64,000 nucleotides of DNA, from assembly GCA_026625165.1 (NCBI GenBank), contig CP112999.1, positions 744,001 through 808,000 on the forward strand, in the 5' to 3' direction. Each line of letters opens with the position of its first letter. Position 1 is the stretch's first letter. Source of the stretch: Methanoregula sp. (lineage in GTDB: Archaea; Halobacteriota; Methanomicrobia; Methanomicrobiales; Methanospirillaceae). This document shows positions 12,323 through 64,000 of this stretch, piece after piece. The position numbers and the translations under genes were made by a program. Below the pieces are notes generated by a model. It did not search any database. It saw only the letters and a program-made list of their open reading frames with translations, and was not told the DNA's origin.

Positions 12323-14881
12323 ATGCCAGTTCTTGATATCAGTTCAGTTACCGGCCTCTCTGATCAGGAGGCTGAAGAGCGACTCCGTCGCGGGGGATAT
12401 AATGAGCTGCCCTCTGCGAAAAAACGGGGTTTTCTCCATATTGTCTTTGAAGTGGTCCACGAGCCGATGTTCCTCCTCCTTGTCGCAGGCGGGCTTCTCT
12501 ATTTTATTCTCGGCGACGTTTCCGAAGGGATGATGCTTTTAAGCTTCGTCATCGTCATCATCGGCATCACTGTCTGGCAGGAACGCAAGACCGAACGGGC
12601 TCTCGAGGCTCTCAGGAACCTCTCGAGCCCCCGGGCCCTCGTCATCCGGAACGGGGTGCAGAAACGGGTCCCCGGCCGGGATGTTGTGACCGGCGATTCG
12701 GTGATCCTCTCTGAGGGCGATCGTGTGCCGGCGGACGGGATATTGCTCATTTCCAACAATGTGTCGGTTGACGAATCCCTGCTGACGGGAGAATCGGGTC
12801 CGGTCAGGAAAATCGCAGGAAGAACGGGTGTCCATGCAGAGCGGCCGGGCGGGGATGACCAGCCCTTTGTATACTCCGGCACACTCGTCGTTTTGGGCCA
12901 GGGCCTTGCGCAGATTACCGCAACGGGTGCTGCCACCGAGATGGGGAAGATCGGCACCGTCCTCCAGACAGTCGAACGGGGCGAGACCCGGCTGAAGATG
13001 GAGATAGACCGGATTGTCAGGACGATTGCCCTTGCCGGGATCTCGCTGTGTGCGATCATTGTGATCGTGTACGGTCTTACCAGGTTCAACTGGCTCGGGG
13101 GATTTTTGGCCGGTATCACGCTTGCCATGGCGATCCTGCCCGAGGAGTTCCCGGTCGTGCTCACAATCTTTCTTGCCCTTGGAGCATGGCGGATCTCCCG
13201 GAGAAATGTACTCACCCGGCAGATCCCCGCTATCGAGACACTGGGTTCTGCTACTGTCCTTTGTGTTGACAAGACAGGCACCCTCACAGAGAACCGGATG
13301 TCTGTGGCGAAATTACTTGCCGGAGGGCAGACCTGCGGTCATGACACCACGACCTCGAATACTGTTCCGGACAGCTGCCATGAAGTTGCCGAATATGCCA
13401 TCCTTGCCTGCAAGAAAGACCCGTTCGACCCGATGGAGAAGGCACTTCTCCAGCTCAAAGACGGGGATTTCGGAAAGACCGAGCATATCCATGCGAACTG
13501 GAACCTTGTACAGGAATACCCTCTCTCCACGGAGCTCCTTGCCATGTCCAATGTCTGGCGGTCGCCCAGTGGCAACCAGTACATCATCGCTGCAAAAGGA
13601 GCACCTGAAGCGATTGCGGATCTCTGTCATCTCGATGCAGCTGCCTTACAGGAACTTTCGGAATCCGTCAACCTGATGGCTGCTGACGGGCTCCGAGTTC
13701 TTGGTGTTGCAAAGGCATCGTTCTCGATCTCCGGCCTTCCTGAAGAACAGCACGATTTTGTCTTTGAATTCCTTGGCCTTGCCGGTTTTGCCGACCCGGT
13801 CCGCCCGCAGGTCGCTGATGCGGTCAGGGAATGCTATACAGCAGGTATCCGGGTCATCATGATCACCGGGGACTACCCGCTGACTGCACAGAACATCGCC
13901 CGGCAGATCGGGCTTGCAGACGGTGCCCGGTACATCACCGGTCCCGAACTGGATGCAATGGATGACAATGAACTGGGAAAGCGGATCAATTCCGTTACGG
14001 TCTTTGCCCGGGTCGTTCCCGAGCAGAAACTCCGGATTGTCAATGCCTTAAAGGAGAACGGGGAGGTCGTTGCGATGACCGGCGACGGCGTGAATGATGC
14101 GCCGGCACTGAAATCCGCAGACATCGGCATTGCCATGGGCGGCAGGGGGACCGATGTTGCCCGCGAGGCCTCATCTCTTGTCCTGCTGGATGACAATTTC
14201 ACATCTATTGTTTCAGCAGTCCGGCTGGGCCGGCGGATCTTTGACAACTTAAAAAAAGCGATGGCCTACATATTCTCCATCCATGTTCCCATTGCCGGAA
14301 TGTCGCTTATCCCCGTCCTCTTTAACATGCCGCTTGTACTCCTTCCGGTCCATATCGTGTTCCTTGAGCTGATCATCGACCCGGCCTGCTCGGTTGTTTT
14401 TGAGGCCGAGAAAGAAGAGCGGGGCGTCATGGACCGCCCGCCCCGGAAAAAGGACGAGGGGCTCTTTACCCGGCGCACGCTTGTGCTCAGCCTCCTGCAG
14501 GGATTTGTCGTGCTCGCTGTCGTGCTCGCCATTTATCTCATCGCATGTGCACGTGGCCTTTCAGAGGACGAGGTCCGGGCCCTGACCTTCACGACCATCG
14601 TTGTTGCCAACCTCTGCCTGATCCTCACCAACCGCTCATGGTCGGAGACAATCATGTCTTCGCTGCGCTCGTACAACAAGGCGCTTTTATGGGTCTTTTC
14701 CGGGGCTCTTGTCTGCCTCTTGCTCGTGCTGTACGTTCCGGTACTCCGGGAACTCTTCGGGTTTGGCGTTCTCGATCCCGCCGACCTGGCGCTCTGTGTC
14801 TGGGCAGGAGTGGCAAGCATCCTGTGGTTCGAGCTTTACAAAATCCGGCAGCGGGCTGCGGGCGATTTGAGATCACCCTGA
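12323..14881 (+). CDS. P-type cation-transporting ATPase, PEEFP subgroup
   Basis: This is an ion-pumping P-type ATPase of about 852 residues. It has the phosphorylated aspartate in DKTGTLTENRM (about residue 316), the actuator motif LTGESGPV, the hinge TGDGVNDAPALKSADIG, and about eight to ten membrane helices. The fourth-helix motif is PEEFP instead of the PEGLP of calcium pumps. That variant marks a poorly characterised branch of P2-type pumps, so the ion is not assigned. ATG at 12323 follows AGGAACAGGA and is preferred over 12281. The ATPase is separated by over 300 bp from its upstream neighbour and is probably monocistronic. Confidence 0.9.
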   Translation: MPVLDISSVTGLSDQEAEERLRRGGYNELPSAKKRGFLHIVFEVVHEPMFLLLVAGGLLYFILGDVSEGMMLLSFVIVIIGITVWQERKTERALEALRNLSSPRALVIRNGVQKRVPGRDVVTGDSVILSEGDRVPADGILLISNNVSVDESLLTGESGPVRKIAGRTGVHAERPGGDDQPFVYSGTLVVLGQGLAQITATGAATEMGKIGTVLQTVERGETRLKMEIDRIVRTIALAGISLCAIIVIVYGLTRFNWLGGFLAGITLAMAILPEEFPVVLTIFLALGAWRISRRNVLTRQIPAIETLGSATVLCVDKTGTLTENRMSVAKLLAGGQTCGHDTTTSNTVPDSCHEVAEYAILACKKDPFDPMEKALLQLKDGDFGKTEHIHANWNLVQEYPLSTELLAMSNVWRSPSGNQYIIAAKGAPEAIADLCHLDAAALQELSESVNLMAADGLRVLGVAKASFSISGLPEEQHDFVFEFLGLAGFADPVRPQVADAVRECYTAGIRVIMITGDYPLTAQNIARQIGLADGARYITGPELDAMDDNELGKRINSVTVFARVVPEQKLRIVNALKENGEVVAMTGDGVNDAPALKSADIGIAMGGRGTDVAREASSLVLLDDNFTSIVSAVRLGRRIFDNLKKAMAYIFSIHVPIAGMSLIPVLFNMPLVLLPVHIVFLELIIDPACSVVFEAEKEERGVMDRPPRKKDEGLFTRRTLVLSLLQGFVVLAVVLAIYLIACARGLSEDEVRALTFTTIVVANLCLILTNRSWSETIMSSLRSYNKALLWVFSGALVCLLLVLYVPVLRELFGFGVLDPADLALCVWAGVASILWFELYKIRQRAAGDLRSP

Positions 14882-49331: not shown

Positions 49332-51392
49332 ATGGATATGAAATACGTACCAACAACATGCCCGTACTGCGGTACCGGCTGCGGCTTCAACCTTGTTGTC
49401 GTGGACAAGAAGGTTGTCGGCGTCCAGCCATGGCACCGCAATCCCGTCAACGAGGGCAAGCTCTGCCCCAAGGGGAACTACGCGCATGAGTTCATCAACA
49501 GTCCTGACCGGCTGACAAAGCCGTTAATCAAGAAAGACGGCAAGTTCGTCGAAGCAAGCTGGGACGAGGCCTACAAGCTGATCGCCGAGAAGTTCAAGAA
49601 GTACCAGGGCGAGCAGAGTGCATGCCTTGCTTCTGCACGTGTCTCCAACGAGGAGAACTACTTAATGCAGAAGTTTGCGCGTGCAGTCCTCAAGACCCCC
49701 AACATCGACCACTGCGCCCGGCTCTGCCACGCATCGACAGTTGTCGGGCTTGCCGGTGCATTCGGGTCCGGTGCAATGACCCAGTCGATCGCAGACATTG
49801 CCGAATCAAAGTGTCTTTTGATTATCGGCAGCAACACGTTTGAGACCCACCCGCTGATCGGGCGCCGCGTGATGCAGGCAAAGGCGAATGGTGCGAAAGT
49901 CATCTATGCGGATCCACGGCTCACTCCGACCGGTAAATTCGCAGACCTGTACCTGCCCTTTTACTCGGGCACAGATGTGGCCATCTTCAACTGCTTCATG
50001 CAGCAGATCATAAAGAACGGCTGGGAGAACAAGGAGTTCGTCAAGAACCGTACCAAGGATTTCGAGAAGGTCAAAGAGATCGTGATGAAGGACACCTACA
50101 GCCCGGCGAATGTCTCGAAGATCTCCGGCATTCCCGAGAAGGACCTCATCACTGCAGCAGAGTGGTTCGGGAAGTCCGGCCAGTCCGCAGTCCTTTACTC
50201 GATGGGGATCACCCAGCACACGACCGGCGTAGACAATGTCAAGTCGATTGCAAACCTCCAGATGCTGACCGGAAACCTCGGCAGGCCCGGCACCGGTATC
50301 TGCGCACTGCGTGGCCAGAACAACGTGCAGGGCGCCTGCGATATGGGAGCGCTCGCAAACGTGTACTCCGGCTACCAGGCTGTCATCGTCCCCGAGATGA
50401 AGAAGAAGATGGAGGACGCGTGGGGATGCACGATTGCCGAGGGCAAGGTCGGTCTTACCGTCACCAAGCTGATCAACACGCTCGCTGACGAACCCGGCAA
50501 GGTCAAGTGCGTCTATATCATGGGTGAGAACCCGATGATCTCCGACCCCGATCTCCACCATGTCGAGAAAGCAATGAAGAATGTCGAATTCATGGTCGTG
50601 CAGGATATCTTCCTGACCGAGACTGCGCAGTTTGCAAACGTCGTGTTGCCCGCTGCCTGCTATGCCGAGAAAGACGGCACCCAGACCAACACCGAACGCC
50701 GCGTCCAGAAGTGGCGCAAAGCCCAGGACCCGCCCGGCGAGGCAAAAGCCGACTGGCAGATCTTCTGCGAGCTGGCAAAGTACATGGGATTCGAGAAACA
50801 GTTCCCGTACAAGAGCGCGGAAGAGGTATTCACGGAGATCTCCAAGGTCACCCCGTCCTATGGTGGCATGGACTATGCACGGCTCGAAAAACCCGAAGCC
50901 CTCCACTGGCCCTGCCCCACCAAGGAACACCCGGGGACCCCGATCCTTCATAAGGAGAAGTTCACCCACCCGGACGGACTGGGCATCTTCACGCCAATCG
51001 AGTTCAAATACCCGGCTGAAGTTCCGGATAAGGACTACCCGCTCATCCTGACCACCGGGCGCTGTATCTGGCAATGGCACACCGGCACGATGACCCGCCG
51101 GTCCGAGAACCTCGAGCGCGAGGAGCCCACGGGCTGGGTCGAGATCAACACCGAGGACGCAAAAGCAATGGGCATCAAGGACAAGGAGATGGTCAAGGCA
51201 ATCACCCGCCGTGGCGAGATCACGGTTGGCGCCCGTGTCACAACGGGGATCAAGAAGGGCGAGGTATTCATCCCGTTCCACTACGTGGAGTGCGCGGCAA
51301 ACACCCTCACCAACAATGCGCTGGATCCGACTGCAGCCATCCCCGAGTTCAAGGCCTGTGCTGTGAGAATTGAGAAGATCAAGGAGGCCTGA
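49332..51392 (+). CDS. fdhA: Formate dehydrogenase catalytic subunit FdhA
   Basis: The 686-residue molybdopterin enzyme oxidises formate to CO2. Cys10, Cys13, Cys17 (CPYCGTGC) and Cys45 hold the [4Fe-4S] cluster. The metal ligand is a cysteine, Cys132 in CARLCHAST, coded by TGC; it is not selenocysteine. LRGQNNVQGACDMGA and the C-terminal cofactor domain are intact. It is followed by fdhB after 2 bp. GAGGT at 49321-49325 precedes the ATG, with a CTTAAATAA TATA-like box near 49287. Electrons pass to F420 through FdhB, or to heterodisulfide reductase in some methanogens. Confidence 0.97.
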   Translation: MDMKYVPTTCPYCGTGCGFNLVVVDKKVVGVQPWHRNPVNEGKLCPKGNYAHEFINSPDRLTKPLIKKDGKFVEASWDEAYKLIAEKFKKYQGEQSACLASARVSNEENYLMQKFARAVLKTPNIDHCARLCHASTVVGLAGAFGSGAMTQSIADIAESKCLLIIGSNTFETHPLIGRRVMQAKANGAKVIYADPRLTPTGKFADLYLPFYSGTDVAIFNCFMQQIIKNGWENKEFVKNRTKDFEKVKEIVMKDTYSPANVSKISGIPEKDLITAAEWFGKSGQSAVLYSMGITQHTTGVDNVKSIANLQMLTGNLGRPGTGICALRGQNNVQGACDMGALANVYSGYQAVIVPEMKKKMEDAWGCTIAEGKVGLTVTKLINTLADEPGKVKCVYIMGENPMISDPDLHHVEKAMKNVEFMVVQDIFLTETAQFANVVLPAACYAEKDGTQTNTERRVQKWRKAQDPPGEAKADWQIFCELAKYMGFEKQFPYKSAEEVFTEISKVTPSYGGMDYARLEKPEALHWPCPTKEHPGTPILHKEKFTHPDGLGIFTPIEFKYPAEVPDKDYPLILTTGRCIWQWHTGTMTRRSENLEREEPTGWVEINTEDAKAMGIKDKEMVKAITRRGEITVGARVTTGIKKGEVFIPFHYVECAANTLTNNALDPTAAIPEFKACAVRIEKIKEA

Positions 51393-51394
51393 CC

Positions 51395-52648
51395 ATGGCA
51401 AAGAAAGGCGATATGCTCTACGCGTGGACAAACGACGCAGAGATCAAGAAAAAGGCTGAGCTTGGCGGCGCAGTCACCGGGCTCTGGAAATACGCGCTCG
51501 AGTCCAAGATGGTGGACGCTGTCCTTGCCATCACAAAGGGAACAGACCTCTATGACGCACAACCCGTGCTGATCACCGATCCCAAGGATCTTGTGAAAAC
51601 AGCCGGCTCCCTCCACTGCGGGACGCTCCTCCTCCCCAAGCTCGTCAAGAAATACCTTGACGGGGCTGCTACGAAAAAGATCGGGGTAACTGTCAAGGGA
51701 TGCGACGCGATGGCGTTCTATGAACTCGCCAAGCGCAAGCAGATCAACCTTGACAATGTCATAATGATCGGGGTCAACTGCGGTGGATCGGTCAGCCCGG
51801 TCACCGCCCGTAAGATGATTGCCGACAAATTCGGTGTCGACCCGGACAAGGTGCACAAGGAAGAGATCGACAAGGGCCAGTTCATCATCGAGTACGAGGG
51901 AGGCCACAAGGGCATATCCATCGACGAGCTTGAGGAACAGGGCTACGGCCGCAGGTCCAACTGCCGCCGGTGCAAGATGAAAATCCCCCGCCAGGCGGAC
52001 CTTGCCTGCGGCAACTGGGGTGTCATCGGTGACAAGGCAGGCAAGGCAACCTTTGTCGAGGTCTGCAGCGAGAAGGGTGCAAACCTTGTCAACGGGGCAG
52101 TGAAAGCAGGCGTCCTCGCAACCGAGGCACCGAACCCGAAGGGGCTCGAGATGCGCGGAAAGGTCGAGGGCGCGATGATGAAGCTTGGCGACAAGTGGCG
52201 CAAGCACGATTTCGAGAGCCTTGGCGAGGGCAAGGACCGGTTAAAGAAGATCATGACCGAGACAAGCCGGTGCATCAAGTGCTACTCCTGTATCGAGGCG
52301 TGCCCGATCTGCTACTGTGTGGACTGCACCACGAAGAACCCGGCGTACGTGACCCCCGGCCAGCTGCCGCCGAACTTCATGTTCCACCTCATCCGCTTTG
52401 CCCACATTGCGGACAGTTGTGTCAACTGCGGCCAGTGCCAGGAACTCTGCCCTGCCGAGATACCCAACGCATTGTTCATGCACGCCCAGCAGGTCGAACT
52501 CGAGAAGATGTTCGGCCATGTGCCGGGCACCGACATGAAACTCCCGCTCCTTGCACTCGTTGAGGAGAAAGCGGAACGCGAACGCCTGCACAACACCGGC
52601 AGCGACATGATCTACGAGAACGTGTTCAACCCCGTGCCAAAACACTAA
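51395..52648 (+). CDS. fdhB: Formate dehydrogenase beta subunit FdhB (F420-reducing)
   Basis: The 417-residue subunit has an FrhB-like F420/FAD region in the first 290 residues (GCDAMAFYEL, GVNCGGSVSPVTA, RRSNCRRCKMKIPRQADLAC split across about 180-200). Two [4Fe-4S] sites follow, CIKCYSCIEACPICYC and CVNCGQCQELCPAEIP. It moves electrons from FdhA to F420. It is coupled to fdhA by 2 bp and followed by a T-rich end. Confidence 0.97.
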   Translation: MAKKGDMLYAWTNDAEIKKKAELGGAVTGLWKYALESKMVDAVLAITKGTDLYDAQPVLITDPKDLVKTAGSLHCGTLLLPKLVKKYLDGAATKKIGVTVKGCDAMAFYELAKRKQINLDNVIMIGVNCGGSVSPVTARKMIADKFGVDPDKVHKEEIDKGQFIIEYEGGHKGISIDELEEQGYGRRSNCRRCKMKIPRQADLACGNWGVIGDKAGKATFVEVCSEKGANLVNGAVKAGVLATEAPNPKGLEMRGKVEGAMMKLGDKWRKHDFESLGEGKDRLKKIMTETSRCIKCYSCIEACPICYCVDCTTKNPAYVTPGQLPPNFMFHLIRFAHIADSCVNCGQCQELCPAEIPNALFMHAQQVELEKMFGHVPGTDMKLPLLALVEEKAERERLHNTGSDMIYENVFNPVPKH

Positions 52649-52989
52649 ATAACCCTTTTTTTGTATTATTTTTAATTTTGATAGGCAATTTGTAAACTAT
52701 TCTTCATTTGCGCGCATCTAATCTTCTGGATTTATTTAAATACCACGACATGCCCGAAGACTGTCTGCCGGGATCATTTCGTGATAAAATTTCATTATTT
52801 TTTAAAAAATTAATGCAAACTGTTTAACATATTTCTTTACCAGTACACCAAAATATCACAATAAAAGTCCCGTTCACAGAAACAATCCGATAATTATTAA
52901 TATTCCCATTAAAGATTTTTATTTGGCCTATACACAATTGATTTAATATGTTGCTGGTATAGGTGGACGTTTCAGAGGTGTGTAAAAAA
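52649..52989. other. fdhB-fdhC intergenic region: T-tracts and leader
   Basis: No gene is seen in this 341-bp AT-rich stretch. A T7 run at 52656-52662 and further T-runs to 52680 form a probable end for fdhAB. TATA-like boxes occur at about 52731-52742 and 52912-52920, so fdhC may have its own promoter with a leader. The ribosome-binding site GAGGTG lies at 52975-52980. An intergenic gap of this size within the fdh locus suggests separate control of the transporter. Confidence 0.5.
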
Positions 52990-53883
52990 ATGGTGTTTCA
53001 TCCTCCGGTAGCAATCGTCGCTAAGGCTGGCGATGCCGGTAAGTACAAAGTGGGCCTGCCCGCATGGAACATGGTCCTTCGTGGATTCATGTCCGGCGCA
53101 TATATCGCCATGGGTGGCGCTCTTGCAACCGTGTGCAGCACGGGGATTGCCTATTCGGCAGCACAAATTACTGCCGGAGCCGTTCCAGGTGGTTTCGCAT
53201 CAGCTGGTATCGCACAGTTGATTCTGGGAGCAGTGTTCCCGGTTGGGCTTATCATCACCGTTCTTACGGGTGCTGAGCTCTTTACGGGCGATGCAATGCT
53301 CGCCCCGATGGCTGCATTCATCCACAAGATCAGCTGGATGCAGGTCCTGAACCTGTGGGTCTTTGTCTATATCGGGAACCTGATCGGCTCAATCTTCTGG
53401 GCATATCTTATGGCAAACGGTCCGTTTGTATCATTTGACGCAGCAGGAGCCGCCACGGTTACCGCATTTGGTTCACGTGCAATTGCCATCGCAGGCGCAA
53501 AGGTAAGTTACGTCGGCATGATGGGCATGTATTCAGCGTTCCTCAAGGCAATCGGCTGCAACTACCTTGTCAACCTCGCCATCCTGCTCGGGATCTGTTC
53601 CGATGACATGGTCGGCAAGTTCTTTGGCATCTGGTTCCCGATCATGGCCTTCGTTTCCAGCGGACTGGAACACTCGATCGCCAACATGTACTTCATACCG
53701 GCAGGAATCTTCACTCAGGGCTTTATCACTGACCCGACCAAGATCAACGCAGGTATCAACTGGGTTTCGATGTGGACGGCAAACGTCATCCCGGTTACCC
53801 TCGGTAACATTGTCGGAGGCCTGTTCTTCGTCGGTGTTCTCTACTGGGTTGCGTTCCAAAAAGAGATCGCAGCACTGAAGTAG
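52990..53883 (+). CDS. fdhC: Formate channel FdhC (FocA/NirC family)
   Basis: The roughly 297-residue protein has six to eight membrane helices of the formate/nitrite transporter family. Family landmarks include RGFMSGAYIAMGGALATV near the N-terminus and ISWVSMW-like sequence (INWVSMWTANVIPVTLGNIVGG) near the end, and a channel histidine fits LEHSIANMYFIPAGIF. ATG at 52990 is set by GAGGTG 9 bp before it; GTG at 52963 is less likely. It brings formate to FdhAB and lies in the same locus. Confidence 0.93.
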   Translation: MVFHPPVAIVAKAGDAGKYKVGLPAWNMVLRGFMSGAYIAMGGALATVCSTGIAYSAAQITAGAVPGGFASAGIAQLILGAVFPVGLIITVLTGAELFTGDAMLAPMAAFIHKISWMQVLNLWVFVYIGNLIGSIFWAYLMANGPFVSFDAAGAATVTAFGSRAIAIAGAKVSYVGMMGMYSAFLKAIGCNYLVNLAILLGICSDDMVGKFFGIWFPIMAFVSSGLEHSIANMYFIPAGIFTQGFITDPTKINAGINWVSMWTANVIPVTLGNIVGGLFFVGVLYWVAFQKEIAALK

Positions 53884-53906
53884 ATTAACCACAAACACTC
53901 TTTTTA

Positions 53907-54410
53907 ATGAAGATTGGAAATGTTGACGTCAAGGTCTCGATCGTATCGATCGCGGTCTTTGTGTTCTTCACGATTTTTCTGGTTGCTGCCTCCGTGTTCA
54001 GCCCCGAAGTCAGGTCACAGCTCATCTGGCTGATCCCGGTCCTGTTCATGCTCCTTGTCATCCCCATCGCGCTCAATTATATGAGCCGCAGCCAGTATGC
54101 GGATATTGAGCCGATCTATGAGCGTGAGGCAAAGACGGTGCGGGTCAAGCTTATCAATGAGAATATGGTCGGCAAAATTGTGCGGATCGAGGGGGTTGTG
54201 GAACGTATCCATTTCCAGTTCTTAAACCGCCCGCAGTATACCGTGGCCGATCGTTCGGGTGATATCTCGGTCAAGATGTTTACCAGCCCTGATGAGGACG
54301 TGAAGGTGAACGATGTGGTCGAAGTGCTGGGGCAGGTGATCCGGCGGTATATCGTCACCGGGGACCCGGTCATCAACTGTGTCTCGATCAAAAAAATAAA
54401 AAAAGAATAA
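53907..54410 (+). CDS. Membrane protein with an OB-fold domain
   Basis: The 167-residue protein has two membrane helices (about residues 10-30 and 38-58) and then a C-terminal OB-fold-like domain: VRIEGVVERIHFQF, YTVADRSGDISVKMF and VNDVVEVLGQVIRRYIV. Such domains usually bind nucleic acid or protein, but here it sits on the membrane, so a nucleic-acid role is doubtful. It follows fdhC by 23 bp with no clear ribosome-binding site. No function is assigned. Confidence 0.6.
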   Translation: MKIGNVDVKVSIVSIAVFVFFTIFLVAASVFSPEVRSQLIWLIPVLFMLLVIPIALNYMSRSQYADIEPIYEREAKTVRVKLINENMVGKIVRIEGVVERIHFQFLNRPQYTVADRSGDISVKMFTSPDEDVKVNDVVEVLGQVIRRYIVTGDPVINCVSIKKIKKE

Positions 54411-54454: not shown

Positions 54455-55291
54455 ATGCCGTTTATAAAACCAAAGGAATCCGGCAGTAATTTGTTCCGGT
54501 GGCTTGAACTGTCAGTCCCGGCCCTCTCGTTCGGGGGAGCGTTCATTGCTGTCATCTTCTGGATTACGGATTTCCCTGCGGATTTCCGGATCTCAATTCT
54601 CGGGTGCGTGTTCGCTTCATGGGTGCTTGCCTATCTGGCATGGATGCGGGAAAAAAAAGACATTGTTGCGCTGACAACCCCGATATATTCATTCATCTTT
54701 CTGGCAGTGCCGACAGACAATTTTTCTGCAGTCATACTAGAACTGCTGTATGCGGCAAGCCTGACCATCCTGCTCGTCCGGCTGAAATACCGGTTCGGCA
54801 GATCAGGTGCTGCAGAATCCGACAGGAAAAAACTTGCAGAACCACTCAGGACTTATGTCGAACAGACCCGTGATTCATTTATGGGTACCAGCCCGGAAAC
54901 AGCGCATCACGCAACCGTAGCATTTGTCCGGTTTGCCGAAGGGGAGTTTAAAGAGTCGTCGCAGAGGTCTGTCGTCGCTGCCGGTCAACCTGGTGATACC
55001 GGGCCGGTATCATCGCTGACCCGTGCGTTCATGATCGTTTCAGAGCATGCAATACTTCTCGACCAGTCGCTTCCCCGGCCTGCCACGTACCTTACCTTTT
55101 TACCGGAAGATTCCGGTGTGCTCGCAAATCCACTGCTCCCTGCACAGGACGATGATGCGGGATTTTATACGACTCTTGACAATGCCCTGCTCCTGCTCTT
55201 CTCTGCTGCATGGAATGCGTCCGTAGCGGATGACCGCCCCCACCTGCTTTCATGCCAGGCGTTTGCCCGGAAACTTATGAGCGGGAAATAA
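54455..55291 (+). CDS. Uncharacterised membrane protein, 278 aa
   Basis: The protein has four to five membrane helices in the first 110 residues (for example SFGGAFIAVIFWITDF and ILELLYAASLTILLV) and a soluble C-terminal half with no motif that I recognise. AGGTC precedes the ATG. It follows the OB-fold membrane protein by 44 bp in the same direction, so the two may share a message. It is not similar to the neighbouring nuclease genes. Confidence 0.6.
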   Translation: MPFIKPKESGSNLFRWLELSVPALSFGGAFIAVIFWITDFPADFRISILGCVFASWVLAYLAWMREKKDIVALTTPIYSFIFLAVPTDNFSAVILELLYAASLTILLVRLKYRFGRSGAAESDRKKLAEPLRTYVEQTRDSFMGTSPETAHHATVAFVRFAEGEFKESSQRSVVAAGQPGDTGPVSSLTRAFMIVSEHAILLDQSLPRPATYLTFLPEDSGVLANPLLPAQDDDAGFYTTLDNALLLLFSAAWNASVADDRPHLLSCQAFARKLMSGK

Positions 55292-55483: not shown

Positions 55484-56848
55484 ATGGACGCTCCCTCATT
55501 TGAAAATCTGCGCAGGTTTTTTGAACGGATAAAAAATATCGGCTTTTTTGAACGGCTCTTTTTCTGGCGGTCGTTTGTCTCGGCAAGCCATGATGCTTAT
55601 AGCGAGTACCAGCAGCTTAACGGTTCTGTAAAGGATCTCGCAGAAGAGAGCCGGGCAGCGGCCGAACAAAACCGGACCCTTGGCCGCGACCTTGAGACCG
55701 TGCGGGCGCAGGTTGGGGTGCTGCAGCAGGAGCTTGCGGCAGAACGGGCGCAGATCAAGGTGATTAACGAGCGGATCTCTGATAAAGAGCGGGAGCGGGC
55801 AACGCTGTCGGCCACACTTGCTGAGACACAGGCCAATTCAGAAAAATCAATTCTACAGCTTAAGGCAGAACTTGCGGCAAACCTTGCCAAATGGGATCTA
55901 CTGAATACGCAATACTTAGAAGCTCGGGAGACAATTAGCCAACACGTACAGAGAGAGGAGGGGCGCCTGCGGGATCATGAACAGAGAATTGCTGGACTCA
56001 ATTCCTTCCAAAAGCAACTCGAAGATAACATTCAGCGCATCAATCAGGAGCGAGAAGAGGAAATACACCGTATGTATGAAGACATGGAAAAAACATGGCT
56101 GAATCATGAAGAAATGGTGGAATCTACCCTTCGGAACATCTGCCGTCAGCATAACATCGAATATTGCGATAAAGAAAAGTTCCCATATTCAGGAAAACCT
56201 GATAACTCTGTTGTCATCTGCAACCAGTATGTAATTTTTGATGCCAAGAGTCCGAAGGACTCTGAAAATCTTGAAAATTTCCCATCATACATCAAGAGCC
56301 AAGCACAAAATATTAAAAAATACGTCAAGGGCGATGATATTAAGCGAGAAGTCTTTTTAGTAGTCCCCACAAATGCCATCACATCCCTTCCTGAAGTGGT
56401 TTACAGGATAGGAGAAGTCAGGGTTTACGTTATAACCTATGACAGCATGGAACCGATAATTCTCGCTTTGAAAAAAATCGAGGAATATACTTTCGCGGAA
56501 CAACTAAGTCCGGAGGATAGGGAAAATATCTGTCAGGTTATTGGTAAATTTGTACATGCATCCAAACGGAAGATCCAGATCGATACGTTCTTCTCGAAAT
56601 TATTTATTGAATTGTTAGAAAATTGCGATTCTAGTTTGCCTCAAAACATCCAAGAAAAACTGGATGAAATAGAAAAGTCGGAAATAATGAATCCTCCATC
56701 CGAACAGCGGAATAAAATGACTCCTTTGCCCGGGCTTGTGAAGTCAGTAAAAGTATTGGAAAAGGAGGCCGAAGCCCGCGAGATCGATATGACGGCGGTT
56801 ACAAAAGACAAAATCGAGAAGATCACGCTGAATAAGTTCTTTGAATAA
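55484..56848 (+). CDS. RmuC-like coiled-coil protein with a PD-(D/E)XK-type nuclease domain
   Basis: The roughly 454-residue protein has a long coiled coil (about residues 40-220, EQNRTLGRDLETVRAQVGVL and on) and then a domain that recalls RmuC: DNSVVICNQYVIFDAKSPKD, with the acidic-x-lysine of PD-(D/E)XK nucleases, followed by SQAQNIKKYVKG and REVFLVVPTNAI. RmuC proteins act on DNA at recombination. Base content changes sharply inside the gene: the coiled coil is GC-rich, the nuclease half AT-rich, the last 30 codons normal. ATG at 55484 has AGGGTG 8 bp before it. AddB-like and AddA-like genes follow directly, 36 bp on. Confidence 0.7.
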   Translation: MDAPSFENLRRFFERIKNIGFFERLFFWRSFVSASHDAYSEYQQLNGSVKDLAEESRAAAEQNRTLGRDLETVRAQVGVLQQELAAERAQIKVINERISDKERERATLSATLAETQANSEKSILQLKAELAANLAKWDLLNTQYLEARETISQHVQREEGRLRDHEQRIAGLNSFQKQLEDNIQRINQEREEEIHRMYEDMEKTWLNHEEMVESTLRNICRQHNIEYCDKEKFPYSGKPDNSVVICNQYVIFDAKSPKDSENLENFPSYIKSQAQNIKKYVKGDDIKREVFLVVPTNAITSLPEVVYRIGEVRVYVITYDSMEPIILALKKIEEYTFAEQLSPEDRENICQVIGKFVHASKRKIQIDTFFSKLFIELLENCDSSLPQNIQEKLDEIEKSEIMNPPSEQRNKMTPLPGLVKSVKVLEKEAEAREIDMTAVTKDKIEKITLNKFFE

Positions 56849-56883
56849 TCCTGTTTTTTCATCTGAAAGGTTAATCACCTAGT

Positions 56884-59800
56884 ATGTCAGCACCCCCGGC
56901 CCGGAAACCAGCCCCCCGTACGATAATATACGCGGGTACTCCTGAGAACGGGGTTGATTTATTTGTTGGACAGTTTATCGCTGCGTCTGCTGCCGACGCG
57001 TTCACTTCATGGCTTGTTCTGCCCACGCGGCGACTCGTACGTGAGGCAGTTCAGAAGATCCGGGATCAGAATATCCCGCTAGTCACATCCCGGATCTGCA
57101 CTCCTGATGACCTCTGCAGGACGTATTTTGAGGAGCATCGTACGAGTACGCGTTTCATCTCCCCGGCCGAATCGAATCTGCTCCTTCTCCGGATCCTCAA
57201 CGAAAAAAAAGCGCAAGCCCCTCTCTTTTTTACCGGCAGTTCCCCCTCATCAGGCACCCGGGAGAGTTTCCAGGAATTTATCAATGTCGTCATCCGGAGA
57301 AAGATCGCGTATCCTTCATGTCTTTCCGATCTCCAGAGCGAGAAGAGCCGGCAGATCGGGTTAATCACCGCCGCATACCGGGAACACCTTACCCTTTTGG
57401 GTCTTGTGGATTCCGACACGATTCTTGAATGGGTGATCGGGCAAATCAAATCTTCCGATGAGAATACATTCGGGAAGGTTTTCGTCTATGGTCTTTATGA
57501 GCCGCTACCCCTTGATCAGGATCTTCTTCGTGCCATCCGCGACCATTCAACTGAATTCACCTATGCAATTCCCGGTAATGTCGACCCGGACCAGGTACGG
57601 GGCGTCATGCGCTGGCTGGGGACTGAAGGCACAGAGATGATCCCAGAATCGGGACAACAAAACCCGCTGACGGGAATTTTTCGCAGGAATGACAGGATCG
57701 ATACCGGTGAGAGGATCCGGACCGGAACATTTCCCACACGGTACAGGGAAGTCGCTGCTGTTGCTGAAGAGATCCGCCGGCTCCATGAGAGAAACGTACC
57801 GTTTAAGGAAATTGCGGTCACGTTTCCCGAAGCCCGCGAAGCAGTCACACTCATCGGGGAAATTTTCTCAGATTTTGACATTCCGTGGAACACCACGACA
57901 AAAAAACGAATCTCCCTTGTCCCCATCGTCTCATTTCTTATCAGTATCAGCGGGGTTGTCGCCGGCCAGTATTCCCGCGAAGACGTCGTGCGGCTGGTTG
58001 GCAGTCCCTACTTCAGGTACCGGAAAAGATCTCCTGTCCCCGGTACCCCGCAGGATACGGATCCCGGCGAACTCGACCTTGTCTCCCGTTATGCCCAGAT
58101 CGAACAGGGGCAGCAGGACTGGTTCGAACGACTGGATCGTCTCCATACGAGGCTGTCAGCCAGTGCGGATGCCGGTGATATTGCGCCGTTTTCCCCAGAA
58201 TCTGTTGAGCGGGTACACACACGGATCAGACCCCTGTTAGAGGATCTTGCCCGTCTTGAGGGTACAAAAACACTGCAGGAACATACGGAGGTTTACCTTG
58301 ACCTGCTCTCGGGATGGGGACTGGATGAACCGCCTGCTTCACCGGGACAGGATGAAACGATTAGCCGGGAAGAGGGAGCAGCGCTGGACAAATTTTATGA
58401 GTGTCTCCGAAGTCTTGGTGCCACCGCAGGTTTTCTGGCTGGTGAGAAGATAGACTCTCGTGAATTCCAGCAGATCCTCACAATCCTCGCAAAAGACTCG
58501 GAGATCCCCCTTACCCGGAATCAGGAAGGGGTCGCCCTTTTAGGGGTGAGGGAATGTGTGCATGAACATTTCACGTATCTCTTCCTTGCAGGCCTGACGG
58601 AAGGGGAGATGCCCCGGCTCACCACCCGCATCCCGTTCACCAACACGCTTGAGAACACCCGGCTGGGAACGCGCACGCTGGAAGAGATCCTGCGTGAGGG
58701 CCGGTATTATTTTGTTTCGGCGCTCCTTGGCGGTTCATCCGTTTACTTAAGCGCCCCGCTCTCTGACGGGGAACAACCGCTCCTGACATCAGCATTTCTC
58801 GAAGTGGTGAAGGCGAGGACAACTGCCGTTCCCTGGGATGTGGGAACAGAGGATTTTGTCCATTCCGGAAAGGAGGAAGCGATCCGTGCGGGGGCTATGA
58901 TCGCAGGGGATATTACCTGCGCCTCGCTCGATCATCTTCCCGTTGATGTGGAGATCGATGATCTTGCCGGACGCATTAACATGGAAGGCTATTACCGCAG
59001 GGGTATTCCAGATTCTCCCTTTGACGGCGTGCTGTCGGGCGATGAAGGGATCTGCGCGGAGCTTTCAAAGCGGTACGGTCCGGAACATGTCTACTCCGCG
59101 ACCACACTTGAAACGTACGCAGAGTGTCCGTTCCGGTTTTACCTGATGCGGATCACCGGGCTATCCGCACTTCCTGAAGTCGAACCAAACCTCTCTGCAA
59201 GCGATCGCGGTATTGCGGTCCACAATGTCCTTACAACATTTTACCGGCGCTGGAAGGCCATGGGAAAAAGGAGGGTGATTCCTTCTGAATTGTCAGATGC
59301 AACCACGCTCATGATGGAGATTGCATCAGAAGAACTCATGAAGCAATCATTCCAGAGCCCGCTCTGGGAAGCGACCTGCGTACAGATGCTCGGGAGTAGT
59401 ACGACCGGCCCCGGGATCTTCCGGCTGTTCCTTGAGAAGGAGGCTGCCGAAGAAGGCTCACCGCTTGTGCCGGCATTTTTTGAACTGGCATTCGGCATGA
59501 AATCCCACGACTCTGATGATCCTGAATCGGTACCGAAGCCTGTCGAACTTACCGGGGATGCGGGATCAGAATCCATCCGGATCAAAGGGAGGATCGACCG
59601 GATCGATCTTACGCCAGACGGGTTCTTTTCGATCTCCGATTACAAGACCGGTTCACAGCTTGCCAGTACAAAAGATATCGAGGCCGGCACAGCCCTGCAG
59701 CTTCCCCTGTATCTCCTTGCCTTCGAGAAGATCTCGGGAAAGACCGGGGTTGCTGCAGGGTATTACCGGATCCGGAGGGAGGTTGACAACAAATTCGTGC

Positions 59801-60033
59801 TGCTCGATGAGCCGGCACGGGACTTCATCATCTCATCCCGTCCACGGGTTACAAAAGATTTCCGTGAACTTCTCCTCAGATCGCACCGGCAGGCATCGGG
59901 GTATATCCGCAGGATCCGGAGCGGAAGTTTTCCGCTTCCTGTTGAAGAGAAGTGCCCGAACCAGTACTGCGAGTTTTCAACCATCTGCCGGTTCGATCCA
60001 TTCCGCATGTTCTTTACCGGGGAGGAGGCCTGA
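56884..60033 (+). CDS. AddB-like helicase-nuclease subunit with Fe-S cysteines
   Basis: The 1049-residue protein is like AddB of the bacterial AddAB end-processing complex. The C-terminal PD-(D/E)XK nuclease shows IDRIDLTPDGFFSISDYKTG, and its iron-sulfur staple has one cysteine in YAECPFRFYL (about residue 748) and three in EEKCPNQYCEFSTICRF (about 1023-1034). The N-terminal helicase-like half starts IIYAGTPENGVDLFVG, without a Walker A lysine, so it is probably not an active ATPase. It is coupled to the AddA-like gene (2 bp gap). Archaea usually use HerA-NurA for end resection, so this pair was likely acquired from bacteria. Confidence 0.85.
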   Translation: MSAPPARKPAPRTIIYAGTPENGVDLFVGQFIAASAADAFTSWLVLPTRRLVREAVQKIRDQNIPLVTSRICTPDDLCRTYFEEHRTSTRFISPAESNLLLLRILNEKKAQAPLFFTGSSPSSGTRESFQEFINVVIRRKIAYPSCLSDLQSEKSRQIGLITAAYREHLTLLGLVDSDTILEWVIGQIKSSDENTFGKVFVYGLYEPLPLDQDLLRAIRDHSTEFTYAIPGNVDPDQVRGVMRWLGTEGTEMIPESGQQNPLTGIFRRNDRIDTGERIRTGTFPTRYREVAAVAEEIRRLHERNVPFKEIAVTFPEAREAVTLIGEIFSDFDIPWNTTTKKRISLVPIVSFLISISGVVAGQYSREDVVRLVGSPYFRYRKRSPVPGTPQDTDPGELDLVSRYAQIEQGQQDWFERLDRLHTRLSASADAGDIAPFSPESVERVHTRIRPLLEDLARLEGTKTLQEHTEVYLDLLSGWGLDEPPASPGQDETISREEGAALDKFYECLRSLGATAGFLAGEKIDSREFQQILTILAKDSEIPLTRNQEGVALLGVRECVHEHFTYLFLAGLTEGEMPRLTTRIPFTNTLENTRLGTRTLEEILREGRYYFVSALLGGSSVYLSAPLSDGEQPLLTSAFLEVVKARTTAVPWDVGTEDFVHSGKEEAIRAGAMIAGDITCASLDHLPVDVEIDDLAGRINMEGYYRRGIPDSPFDGVLSGDEGICAELSKRYGPEHVYSATTLETYAECPFRFYLMRITGLSALPEVEPNLSASDRGIAVHNVLTTFYRRWKAMGKRRVIPSELSDATTLMMEIASEELMKQSFQSPLWEATCVQMLGSSTTGPGIFRLFLEKEAAEEGSPLVPAFFELAFGMKSHDSDDPESVPKPVELTGDAGSESIRIKGRIDRIDLTPDGFFSISDYKTGSQLASTKDIEAGTALQLPLYLLAFEKISGKTGVAAGYYRIRREVDNKFVLLDEPARDFIISSRPRVTKDFRELLLRSHRQASGYIRRIRSGSFPLPVEEKCPNQYCEFSTICRFDPFRMFFTGEEA

Positions 60034-60035
60034 TC

Positions 60036-63000
60036 ATGCCGGCAACCGGGCGGCAGAACGAGGCGATAACGGAACATGACCGGAGCATGGTCGTGACTGC
60101 CGGGGCCGGTACCGGCAAGACCTACGTGCTCGTGCAGAAGTATGTCAACCTCATCGAGACCCGGGGTGTGGGTGTTCCGGAAATCCTTGCCCTGACCTTT
60201 ACGGACAAAGCGGCAGCGGAGATGAAAGAGCGGATCAGAAAAGAGATCTCGCGACGGTCCGGGCCTCTCTGGGAGAAGGCGGCAGACGACTTTATGGTCG
60301 CGCCGGTCCAGACATTCCATTCATTCTGTGCGCAGATCCTGCGGGAGTTCCCGCTGGAGACCGGCCTCGATCCCGGGTTTGCAGTGCTGGACGAGGACCT
60401 GATGGCTCGCATTCACAGCCGGTCGTACGAGGAACTGATCCACCGGGCCCAGCCGGAGCCGGTCAACAGGGCAACCGTGCAGGTGCTCTCCTGCACCGAC
60501 CAGTACACGCTCCGCAAAATGCTCTTTTCGATGTACGGGAAGCGGGACCAGTACCTCCGGTTTTTCAAAGCGCTTAAAGAGGATGAATCAGGAGTACTTG
60601 CTTTCTGGCAGGAGGATGTGCACCGGTTCCGGGACGCCGAACTTAGATCCCTTGCAACTGATCCGCAGTTTTCATCGGATGTCAGCACGCTCCGAAATTT
60701 TGCCGCAGCGTACGAGGGAGTGAATGACAAGGCTGTACAGTACCTTTCCGGGATCCGGTCTTCCCTTGATGAGTTATCCCGGTTCTCCGACGCATCGGCA
60801 TTCTGCAGTGCTGCCACTGAAATTCTTTCTAACCGGCCTGGCAACGTGGGGAATAAAAAGGTCTGGAGAGGAAACGATCTCGACCAATTCAGAAGAGCCC
60901 GCAGGAGCCTTGTTCAGGTTCTTGAACAGAAAGAACCGCTCTTCCGCTTAACCGTTGATCCTGCCGATCCGCTGATCACCGGTTCCCTGCAACTGCTTCA
61001 CAATCTCTCCTTTGTATTCCCGCGCTATCTTGAGATTGTTGGCGCTAAGAAATCAACGCACGGCGGGCTTGATTTTTCCGACCTGATCCTGTATGCACGG
61101 GAACTTTTCACGCAGCATTCCGATATCGTCGCAACGCACTTTGCCCGGCGGTACCGGTACATCCTTGTCGATGAATTCCAGGACACCGACCCGACACAGT
61201 TCGATGTCGTGCTCGCGCTTGTCGGCGACCTGCAGCCCACCACGGACTGTCTCTTCATCGTTGGCGATCCCAAGCAGTCCATCTACCTGTTCCGGGATGC
61301 GGACGTGACCCGGTTCAAGGCGGCTCAGGAGATCATCGAACGCTCCTGCATGGGAAAGACAGTAGATCTCGACACCAGCTTCCGGAGCACGGGCGAGGTG
61401 ATCGGGTTTGCCAACATCCTTTTCAGATCGCTCTTTTCGTCAACTGAAAAACCGTGGGAGTTTCCGTACGAGCGGATCCTGACTTCCCCGGGACGGGCGG
61501 AACACCACGGGACGATCGAACTGCTGCTGCCACGTTCGGGAGAGACCAGTTCTGAAACGAAACGGAACGAGGCGGAGATTGTGGCCCGGCGGATCCAGTC
61601 CCTTGTCTCATCGCGGATCGGGGTGTACGAGGAGCAGGCCGATCACACGTTCATGAAACGAGCGGCACGGTACGGGGATATCGCGCTCCTCCTTGAACAG
61701 CGGACGAACCTTCCGCAGTACCTTGCCGCGCTGACCCGGTTCAACATCCCGTACTATGTCCATGGCGGGACGGGCTTTTATGGACGGCAGGAGATCTACG
61801 ATCTTTACAACCTGCTCGCGTTTTTAGAGAATGAGCATAACGATGTGTGTTTGTTCGGTGTGCTGCGCTCGCCGTACTTCGGGATGTCGGATGCCGAACT
61901 CTACTTCCTGTCGCGTGAGCCCGGTGCTTCGTTTATTGAAAAACTCCGGCGCTCTGCCGGAAGGAGTGCGTCTGCCGGACGGGCATTGCGCCTTCTCTCT
62001 TCATGGCAGGAGTACGCAGGCCGGACCGGGCTTGTCGTACTGATCCGGAAGATCCTATCAGAATCCGGCGTGTACGCGGTGTACGGGGCGCTGCCGCAGG
62101 GTGCGCAGATCCTTGCCAACATCGAGAAGCTGGTCGCGATCGCCCGGCAGCGGGAAGAGGAGGGGCTCTACGGTCTTTCTGATTTCACGGCCGACCTCCG
62201 GATCGCGATGGAGGACGAAGAGCGCGAGGGCGAGGCGCCGCTCGATGCGTTATCGGAGCACGCCGTCAACATCATGACCGTCCACGCGGCAAAAGGCCTT
62301 GAGTTCCCGATCATCGTTGTCCCGGACATGGGCGTTTCGTTCCGGGACCGGCCGGAGAACATCATGATCGGCGACGACCCCCGGCTGGTCGGGGTTAAGG
62401 TTCCTGACCCTGACGACGGGTATGCCCCTGCCGAATCGCCGGTCCTCACCGCGCTGCGCGAGATCCAGCGGCAGAAGGAACGGGCGGAGAAAAAACGGTT
62501 GTTGTATGTCGCCCTGACCCGGGCCCGGGACCACCTCATCATGAGCGGGGTTTTACCGGAAGAGCCGCAGGCATCACTGGCCTTTGCCCGGACCCGGATT
62601 GAATGGATCTGCTCGGCGTTCAACATCACACCCGACGCAATCACGGCCGGCGGGATTACACTCGATCCTGGCGAAGGGTTCCGGCCTGTTCATCTCAAAA
62701 TCATAACAGACCCGGCGGCGATTCCTGCGGAGACAGTTGAAGCGAAACCGTCGCTGATTACAGTTCCCGCCGATTGTGCCGGCATGACCGGAGGGCGCGT
62801 CCGGATAGAATATATACCAGAACCGGATTCTCACCGGGTGTACACCGTATCCGAGCTGGAGAAGATTGCCGGTGTTCCGGTTCCGGATCACCGGCCGGTC
62901 GTAGCGAAGTACCTGCCGAACGTTAACGGGACATTAAAGGGAACCATCATCCACGAAGTACTTCGGGGCCGGGATGCCGCAACTGTGCTGAAAGAATATG

Positions 63001-63377
63001 GCGAATATTCGGAAAAGCATGTCCGGCAGTGCGAGGATATTGTTGCAAAGTTCCGTTCGTCCGATCTGATGAAGCGGGTGAAGCGGGAGTTCTGCGAGCT
63101 GCCGTTTGAGGTTACCGTTGATGGGAAGTGGGTAACGGGGAAAATTGACCGGTTATGTGAACTCTCTGAGGGATCTTGGATTGTGATCGATTATAAGTCG
63201 GAGCCGGTTTTACCAGATGAGTATGCTTCTGTGGCGAAGGAGTACGAGGTATCGATGGCAATATACTGTGAGGCTGCCCGGCAAATCATGAAGAAAGCGG
63301 AAATCTCCGGGTACTTTTTCTTCATAGAGACCGGGGATTTTTCCGGGCCGAGGTTTCGTAAGTCTAAATCCGGTTAA
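60036..63377 (+). CDS. AddA-like UvrD-family helicase-nuclease
   Basis: The roughly 1113-residue protein has the whole superfamily 1A helicase set: Walker A VTAGAGTGKTYVLVQKYV, LVDEFQDTDPTQFD, GDPKQSIYLFRDADV, NIMTVHAAKGLEFPII and LLYVALTRARDHLIMSG. A C-terminal RecB-type nuclease has TIIHEVLRG, GKIDRLCELS and VIDYKSE. It should unwind and degrade DNA from double-strand ends with the AddB-like partner. GGAGGAGG lies just before the ATG at 60036. The longer frame from 59952 overlaps the AddB-like gene and is not preferred. Confidence 0.9.
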   Translation: MPATGRQNEAITEHDRSMVVTAGAGTGKTYVLVQKYVNLIETRGVGVPEILALTFTDKAAAEMKERIRKEISRRSGPLWEKAADDFMVAPVQTFHSFCAQILREFPLETGLDPGFAVLDEDLMARIHSRSYEELIHRAQPEPVNRATVQVLSCTDQYTLRKMLFSMYGKRDQYLRFFKALKEDESGVLAFWQEDVHRFRDAELRSLATDPQFSSDVSTLRNFAAAYEGVNDKAVQYLSGIRSSLDELSRFSDASAFCSAATEILSNRPGNVGNKKVWRGNDLDQFRRARRSLVQVLEQKEPLFRLTVDPADPLITGSLQLLHNLSFVFPRYLEIVGAKKSTHGGLDFSDLILYARELFTQHSDIVATHFARRYRYILVDEFQDTDPTQFDVVLALVGDLQPTTDCLFIVGDPKQSIYLFRDADVTRFKAAQEIIERSCMGKTVDLDTSFRSTGEVIGFANILFRSLFSSTEKPWEFPYERILTSPGRAEHHGTIELLLPRSGETSSETKRNEAEIVARRIQSLVSSRIGVYEEQADHTFMKRAARYGDIALLLEQRTNLPQYLAALTRFNIPYYVHGGTGFYGRQEIYDLYNLLAFLENEHNDVCLFGVLRSPYFGMSDAELYFLSREPGASFIEKLRRSAGRSASAGRALRLLSSWQEYAGRTGLVVLIRKILSESGVYAVYGALPQGAQILANIEKLVAIARQREEEGLYGLSDFTADLRIAMEDEEREGEAPLDALSEHAVNIMTVHAAKGLEFPIIVVPDMGVSFRDRPENIMIGDDPRLVGVKVPDPDDGYAPAESPVLTALREIQRQKERAEKKRLLYVALTRARDHLIMSGVLPEEPQASLAFARTRIEWICSAFNITPDAITAGGITLDPGEGFRPVHLKIITDPAAIPAETVEAKPSLITVPADCAGMTGGRVRIEYIPEPDSHRVYTVSELEKIAGVPVPDHRPVVAKYLPNVNGTLKGTIIHEVLRGRDAATVLKEYGEYSEKHVRQCEDIVAKFRSSDLMKRVKREFCELPFEVTVDGKWVTGKIDRLCELSEGSWIVIDYKSEPVLPDEYASVAKEYEVSMAIYCEAARQIMKKAEISGYFFFIETGDFSGPRFRKSKSG

Positions 63378-63687
63378 TTCAACGGGATTAAGTCTGGCGA
63401 ATCCGTACAGCGTTTATCGACCATTTCCCATTCAAACTTCTTCGCGTTATCAAGGTCTTCCCTGCCTGCCCCGGTTCAACAAGAACATTTTGCCCGGGAA
63501 TTCACGAACACTGAGATATCGGTCATATTTCCGGATGTTTGGTTGGATGGGTAAATAGGACGATCGGCCTCAGGAATCTTTCTCAGTACTGATGGAGCAG
63601 TATGAATCTCAATAATTGTGAAATGCAGATTGAATAAATTTTTGTACGAGAAATATTCAATACACTTTTATCATTAGGGGAATTCCA
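63378..63687. other. Intergenic region after the AddA-like gene
   Basis: No reliable gene is present in these 310 bp. The minus strand contains about 30 coding-like codons ending at 63374 (EDLDNAKKFEWEMVDKR) with an upstream stop, perhaps a remnant. An AGGGGA ribosome-binding site at 63676 belongs to the next gene. Confidence 0.35.
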
Positions 63688-64000
63688 ATGAAATCTGAAG
63701 TGATTATCTGCCCCAAATGCCGGACAAAGATCCCTTTGACCGAAGCCATAACATCACAAATTCGGGAAGATCTGAAAAAAGAATTCGAATCTGAACTCAA
63801 AGAAATCAAGGAAAAAACGGAAAAAGATCTGATTGAAGAAAAAGAAAAAATTGCGAATGAAGCCAAAGAAATGGCCGAATTAAAAGTAAAGATCGACTTG
63901 GACGATTTACGGCAACAGATTTCAGAGAAAGATGAAAAATTACAAGCTGCGCATAAGAATGAATTAGAACTTCGGCAAAGAGCCCGGGAACTTGAAGCCA
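63688..64000 (+). CDS. DUF2130-like coiled-coil protein (partial, cut by window edge)
   Basis: An open frame of 104 codons runs off the right edge. It opens with VIICPKCRTKIPLTEAITSQ, a single CxxC and the LTEA/Q stretch typical of the DUF2130 family. A lysine/glutamate coiled coil follows (IREDLKKEFESELKEIKEK and on). Complete members end in a PD-(D/E)XK-like nuclease domain, which would lie outside this window. It is AT-rich like the core of the RmuC-like gene. AGGGGA precedes the ATG. Confidence 0.75.
   Translation, partial: MKSEVIICPKCRTKIPLTEAITSQIREDLKKEFESELKEIKEKTEKDLIEEKEKIANEAKEMAELKVKIDLDDLRQQISEKDEKLQAAHKNELELRQRARELEA

Follow-up and report, generated by a model that had tools for sequence, protein, structure and literature searches.

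Mre11-Rad50 is regarded as near-universal. In archaea, its genes form a herA-nurA-rad50-mre11 cluster according to literature cited in PMC9960219, and in Bacillus subtilis the genes addB-addA-sbcD-sbcC lie in a putative operon, with SbcCD thought to open hairpin or blocked ends beside AddAB (PMC1533848). Our literature search returned nothing relevant on Methanoregula with Rad50, or on RmuC with AddAB. Here we describe a Methanoregula sp. whose single-contig genome shows neither Mre11-Rad50 nor HerA-NurA; the exchange can be traced at the site itself, and its relatives still carry fragments of the lost genes. In this archaeon, a core repair pathway seems to have been swapped in situ, and the proposed substitution of AddAB and an RmuC-like nuclease, here termed gene1, for the archaeal resection genes is well supported by comparison of related loci.

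The window, meaning the whole stretch of 64,000 nucleotides analysed, covers positions 744001-808000 of this 2.17-Mb genome (98.8% complete). At its right end, the four rightward genes described in the first-pass annotation proved to be a real row, and their coordinates were confirmed, all on the plus strand: gene1, a coiled-coil PD-(D/E)XK protein of 454 aa (55484-56848, ATG at 55484); an AddB-like subunit with a C-terminal PD-(D/E)XK nuclease and cysteines of the iron-sulphur type (56884-60033); an AddA-like subunit with a UvrD-type helicase and a C-terminal nuclease (60036-63377); and a DUF2130 gene of 453 aa, which occupies 63688-64000 in the window and runs past its end to 65049 in window numbering (genome 809049). 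The tight spacing reported for the first three genes was equally confirmed, with 35 bp between gene1 and addB and 2 bp between addB and addA (ATG at 60036, 2 bases past the AddB stop). The DUF2130 gene follows addA after 310 bp. It matches PF09903 with 202 bits against a curated cut-off of 26.7 (E 1e-59) and was found in only 2 of the 150 genomes of the order; on this count its proposed role as a partner in the AddAB module was rejected, and we judge it to be a neighbour or cargo of gene1-addB-addA.

To the left of gene1, gene cluster comparison identified a conserved flank consisting of a formate transporter of the FdhC type and an OB-fold-like gene of 167 aa (52963..54410, plus strand), followed by a 278-aa protein without family match, u278 (54455..55291, plus strand). 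The latter also adjoins gene1 in two relatives (G129, G149) and was not observed in any herA-type locus retrieved. Here, an fdhA-fdhB pair (49332-52648) separates FdhC from the conserved left flank; in the related genome G140 it is absent at that spot.

The AddB-like and AddA-like identities were borne out by their domains. AddB carries a PDDEXK_1 nuclease domain (E 8e-40) with the nuclease motif SDYKTG and the cysteines ECPF ... KCPNQYC ... TIC, and AddA carries a UvrD helicase (1e-57; GAGTGKT, DEFQDTD) and a C-terminal PDDEXK_1 domain (1e-7; nuclease motif DYKSEP). The pair thus shows the features expected of AddAB, namely an AddA with helicase and nuclease, an AddB with a nuclease and the cysteine set, and adjacent genes. 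Since the scores fall below the NCBIfam equivalog cut-offs (TIGR02785, 348 bits, cut-off 708; TIGR02773, 85 bits, cut-off 904), we refer to the pair as AddAB-like. AddAB is no local oddity: AddB or AddA was found in 87 of the 150 genomes of the order, nearly always as an adjacent pair.

Gene1 consists of an N-terminal FFERIKN-GFFERLF motif, a coiled coil of ∼180 residues, a PD-(D/E)XK domain and a helical C-terminus. Its motif residues (P239 D240 ... D253 A254 K255) are invariant in the family alignment, and the PD...DAK motif is kept in 80/80 homologs retrieved from a public collection of genomes. In the AlphaFold2 model, a long coiled-coil helix is followed by an alpha/beta PD-(D/E)XK domain, which was also modelled alone. 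The best solved-structure matches to the gene1 model are PD-(D/E)XK nucleases, with McrC first for the domain alone (probability 0.98, E 1.9e-3); for RmuC, too, McrC was reported as the nearest nuclease (PMC1189080). An attempt to place gene1 by sequence in a solved family gave coiled-coil matches only. Membership in Pfam RmuC (PF02646) was ruled out, since this profile matched neither the genome, nor the gene1 protein, nor any of 33 gene1 homologs. A full-length profile-profile comparison with real RmuC was weak (probability 40, E 3e-4) with the PD and DAK motifs aligned, and a domain-only hhalign comparison gave no significant match. No long hydrophobic stretch was visible by eye in the first 60 residues. 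Gene1 is RmuC-like in architecture and not an RmuC member; of its earlier description as RmuC-like, the coiled coil followed by a PD-(D/E)XK fold stands and family membership does not. Most gene1 homologs, from Bacteroidota, Omnitrophota and DPANN, do not lie beside AddAB. In the gene1 tree, the copies from addB-adjoining loci form one clade together with that of G149 (99/92 support), whose contig breaks off inside gene1 or shortly behind it.

The site of exchange can be seen by comparison with G140, a genome of the same genus without AddAB. There, the order is FdhC-OB-herA-nurA-rad50-mre11; in the window genome, the same site reads FdhC-OB-u278-gene1-addB-addA. The FdhC/OB flank borders a herA/nurA/rad50/mre11-type locus in six genomes (G140, G017, G005, G117, G077 and G085). 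Nucleotide (blastn) homology between the window and G140 runs to window position 54397 and then stops; a 243-bp block, single-copy in the stretches compared, pairs window 65539-65778 with G140 14105-14343, and homology in coding sequence is found again from window 71652. The same pattern of exchange was observed for G137 versus G081 and for G101 versus G133, with matching flanks other than the FdhC-OB type.

In the window's single-contig genome we could detect no Mre11, whether SbcD-type or archaeal-type, no NurA and no HerA, and the AAA_23 search for Rad50 candidates yielded one SMC-size protein and short Walker-type matches only. Absence of the archaeal genes was judged by profile and protein searches, for HerA in 19 genomes only. 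Remnants of the old genes are present in relatives: the 3' end of rad50 precedes gene1 in G053 (110 aa, 86%) and G059 (29 aa, 79%), and the 3' end of herA lies beside the new genes in G129 and G101 (75-79%). No rad50 or herA stub was detectable in the window genome itself. Together, the shared site in G140 and the missing genes here support the suggestion that the AddAB run stands in for Mre11-Rad50/HerA-NurA; the gene content, the exchange site, the absence of the four archaeal genes, the stubs in relatives and the alternative partners described below can be read directly from the sequence.

We further observed that three genomes retain only the last 50-63 HerA residues, in small open frames (L065:14716-14868, L069:8402-8560, L067:19428-19613). 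That the same HerA end is kept repeatedly may point to a common junction or to a retained element. No tRNA or known RNA that could serve as an integration site was found in the loci scanned. In G137, a second, divergent Mre11-Rad50 (G137:C1:395052-397134, 51% identity) is located away from the gene1-AddAB genes at the old site, and neither NurA nor HerA was detectable in this genome.

Gene1 immediately precedes addB in the window genome and in six other family members (G053, G059, G129, G137, L101 and L102), and the order gene1-addB-addA is kept down to ∼45-50% AddB identity. These three genes are therefore not scattered in related genomes, and they belong together, as had been proposed. On a further Methanoregula contig (L097:3466-5565), the gene next to FdhC-OB-gene1 encodes a UvrD-type helicase that differs from AddB and resembles a 1019-aa UvrD-nuclease in G064.

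Here and in Methanoregula, the position ahead of addB is taken by gene1; in G029 and G047 it is filled by SbcD-SbcC (divergently oriented in G109), and in G101 by an Mre11/Rad50-like pair. On the AddB tree the gene1 label needs two changes, so that partner and AddAB have recombined relative to each other. SbcD and archaeal Mre11 occurred together in 0/150 genomes of the order. Among the 87 genomes with AddAB, 35 have archaeal Mre11, 33 have SbcD and none has both, according to presence lists entered by hand from profile-search results with short or weak Mre11 matches left out. The other 19 were scored as having neither, and 16 of these carry an intact gene1; the association of intact gene1 with absence of Mre11/SbcD gave a Fisher value of 1e-12 in a test that ignores phylogeny. 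The remaining three are G101, with its own Mre11-like pair, G125, with a contig break, and G057, with a fragmented Mre11. Exceptions in the other direction are G137, where intact gene1 occurs alongside Mre11, and G082, where it occurs alongside SbcD.

This correlation perhaps rests on two or three lineages. Intact gene1 also goes with missing Mre11 in another clade, in which it is unlinked to addB. Eight genomes, which we take to be Methanocorpusculum-like, were scored as having a diverged, second-type gene1, with loss of the DAK motif seen directly in five and the other three assigned by similarity; all eight have SbcD. Two such loci (L084:9323-12314, L085:9133-12123) carry tandem coiled-coil genes, including a gene1-type copy without the DAK motif. 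Two other genomes, G064 (L219, C1 ∼20 kb) and G113 (L220, C17 ∼55 kb), lack both AddAB and a standard Mre11, and their short Mre11-like matches adjoin long AAA_23 proteins; these genes possibly represent another Mre11-Rad50 type.

Our preferred interpretation is that gene1-addB-addA is probably the cell's module for resection of double-strand break ends, exchanged in place for mre11-rad50-nurA-herA and with gene1 in the Mre11-Rad50 role. AddAB would unwind and trim the ends to produce a 3' tail for RadA, providing long-range resection, and gene1 would open ends that are closed to AddAB, such as hairpins and protein-blocked ends, which is the job of SbcCD/Mre11-Rad50; the putative addB-addA-sbcD-sbcC operon of B. 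subtilis (PMC1533848) fits this reading. We infer these biochemical roles, and the substitution of gene1 for Mre11-Rad50, from the gene comparisons; this substitution is a good and testable reading of them. Several observations weigh against it: the gene1 correlation comes from few lineages, intact gene1 is found with Mre11 in G137 and with SbcD in G082, most gene1 homologs are unlinked to AddAB, and the window genome itself has no detectable rad50 or herA stub. AddAB also occurs with archaeal Mre11 in ∼34 other genomes and thus does not by itself force the loss of Mre11.

It might instead be argued that AddAB alone replaced the archaeal set, and that gene1 has another job, for example the curbing of inversions at repeats that has been suggested for RmuC, and sits beside addB for expression reasons. 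The mostly unlinked gene1 homologs would fit such a view, as would G101 and G029, which pair AddAB with other partners, and the L097 contig, where gene1 accompanies a different helicase. We nevertheless consider it rather unlikely, given that the gene1-addB linkage persists in six other family members despite the AddB divergence and that the second clade shows the same relation to Mre11 absence without linkage.

An anti-phage function had also been suggested. On such a reading, gene1-AddAB, with DUF2130 as cargo, would degrade incoming DNA in the manner of Shield's RmuC-domain protein and sit in a defence island. The RmuC domain of ShdA is indeed a nuclease used in defence (PMC10270631), and the right-hand neighbours of addA are defence systems that vary by genome: SIR2-HerA in G059, a DRT4/6-type reverse transcriptase in G053, PDC-M68AB in G137 and SngABC in G129, with YhcG/PDC-S02 in the window genome (L001 13876-14946). 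However, Gabija adjoins mre11 in G089 and G081. Since the hotspot is thus also present with mre11-rad50, the defence genes mark the site rather than gene1-AddAB as a defence system. The module moreover replaces housekeeping repair genes, and on gene1 and AddAB themselves PADLOC reported only generic UvrD (GajB), Cas4-like and weak coiled-coil matches and no known anti-phage system. No clear enrichment of defence genes was seen around bacterial gene1 homologs either, where near and far PADLOC counts were not clearly different (at most ∼8/88 versus ∼4/83), and a defence link of gene1 in bacteria was accordingly dropped. We regard an anti-phage role as improbable.

The variable defence systems can be viewed in L062, L063, L064 and L065 to the right of addA and in L202 and L203 to the right of mre11. 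A Cas4-like PD-(D/E)XK gene on the minus strand (L001 12204-13067, genome 810204-811067) occurs in 9/150 genomes, within the family. It lies near addA in four of them (the window genome, G053, G059 and, ∼50 bp from addA, G029) and near mre11-rad50 in G121.

A third account, in which the co-occurrence reflects shared ancestry through a single ancient transfer and losses that happened to coincide, without functional substitution, seems very improbable to us: the independent lineages are few and the Fisher tests ignore phylogeny, but in-place exchange in three distinct pairings that differ in their flanks and the two gene1-label changes on the AddB tree speak against it, and loss of NurA-HerA without substitution is unlikely because literature cited in PMC9960219 describes NurA-HerA as essential in Sulfolobus.

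Returning to gene1-addB-addA as a resection module, we tentatively propose, as a possibility somewhat short of even, a broader scheme in which the gene1 family, which has no Pfam entry, would take the place of Mre11-Rad50 as a non-homologous partner of AddAB. In this scheme, whole end-processing machines would be exchanged at the archaeal resection locus, next to a hotspot of defence genes, perhaps because viruses target them. The locus offers a natural experiment on which Mre11-Rad50 functions are indispensable, and the gene1 proteins, which occur widely across Bacteroidota and further phyla, become a candidate family for hairpin or blocked-end processing.

Among described systems, Shield ShdA (PMC10270631) shares an RmuC-type nuclease domain with gene1; unlike gene1, it is anti-phage, membrane-bound and unlinked to AddAB. 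RmuC itself (PF02646, E. coli RmuC; PMC1189080) resembles gene1 in its coiled coil followed by PD-(D/E)XK, in motifs that align in one profile comparison and in having McrC as nearest nuclease, whereas gene1 differs in the missing Pfam match, no evident membrane helix, a conserved N-terminal motif, a helical C-terminus and the addB linkage. With the archaeal herA-nurA-rad50-mre11 cluster, as described in the literature cited in PMC9960219, the locus shares the presumed task and, in relatives, the chromosomal site, yet its proteins are entirely different and 0/4 of the archaeal genes were detected here. As in the putative B. subtilis operon, AddAB genes adjoin an Mre11-Rad50-type pair in the relatives G029 and G047, as sbcD-sbcC-addB-addA; in the window genome, with no detectable Mre11/Rad50, the SbcCD slot is instead filled by a single coiled-coil PD-(D/E)XK protein.
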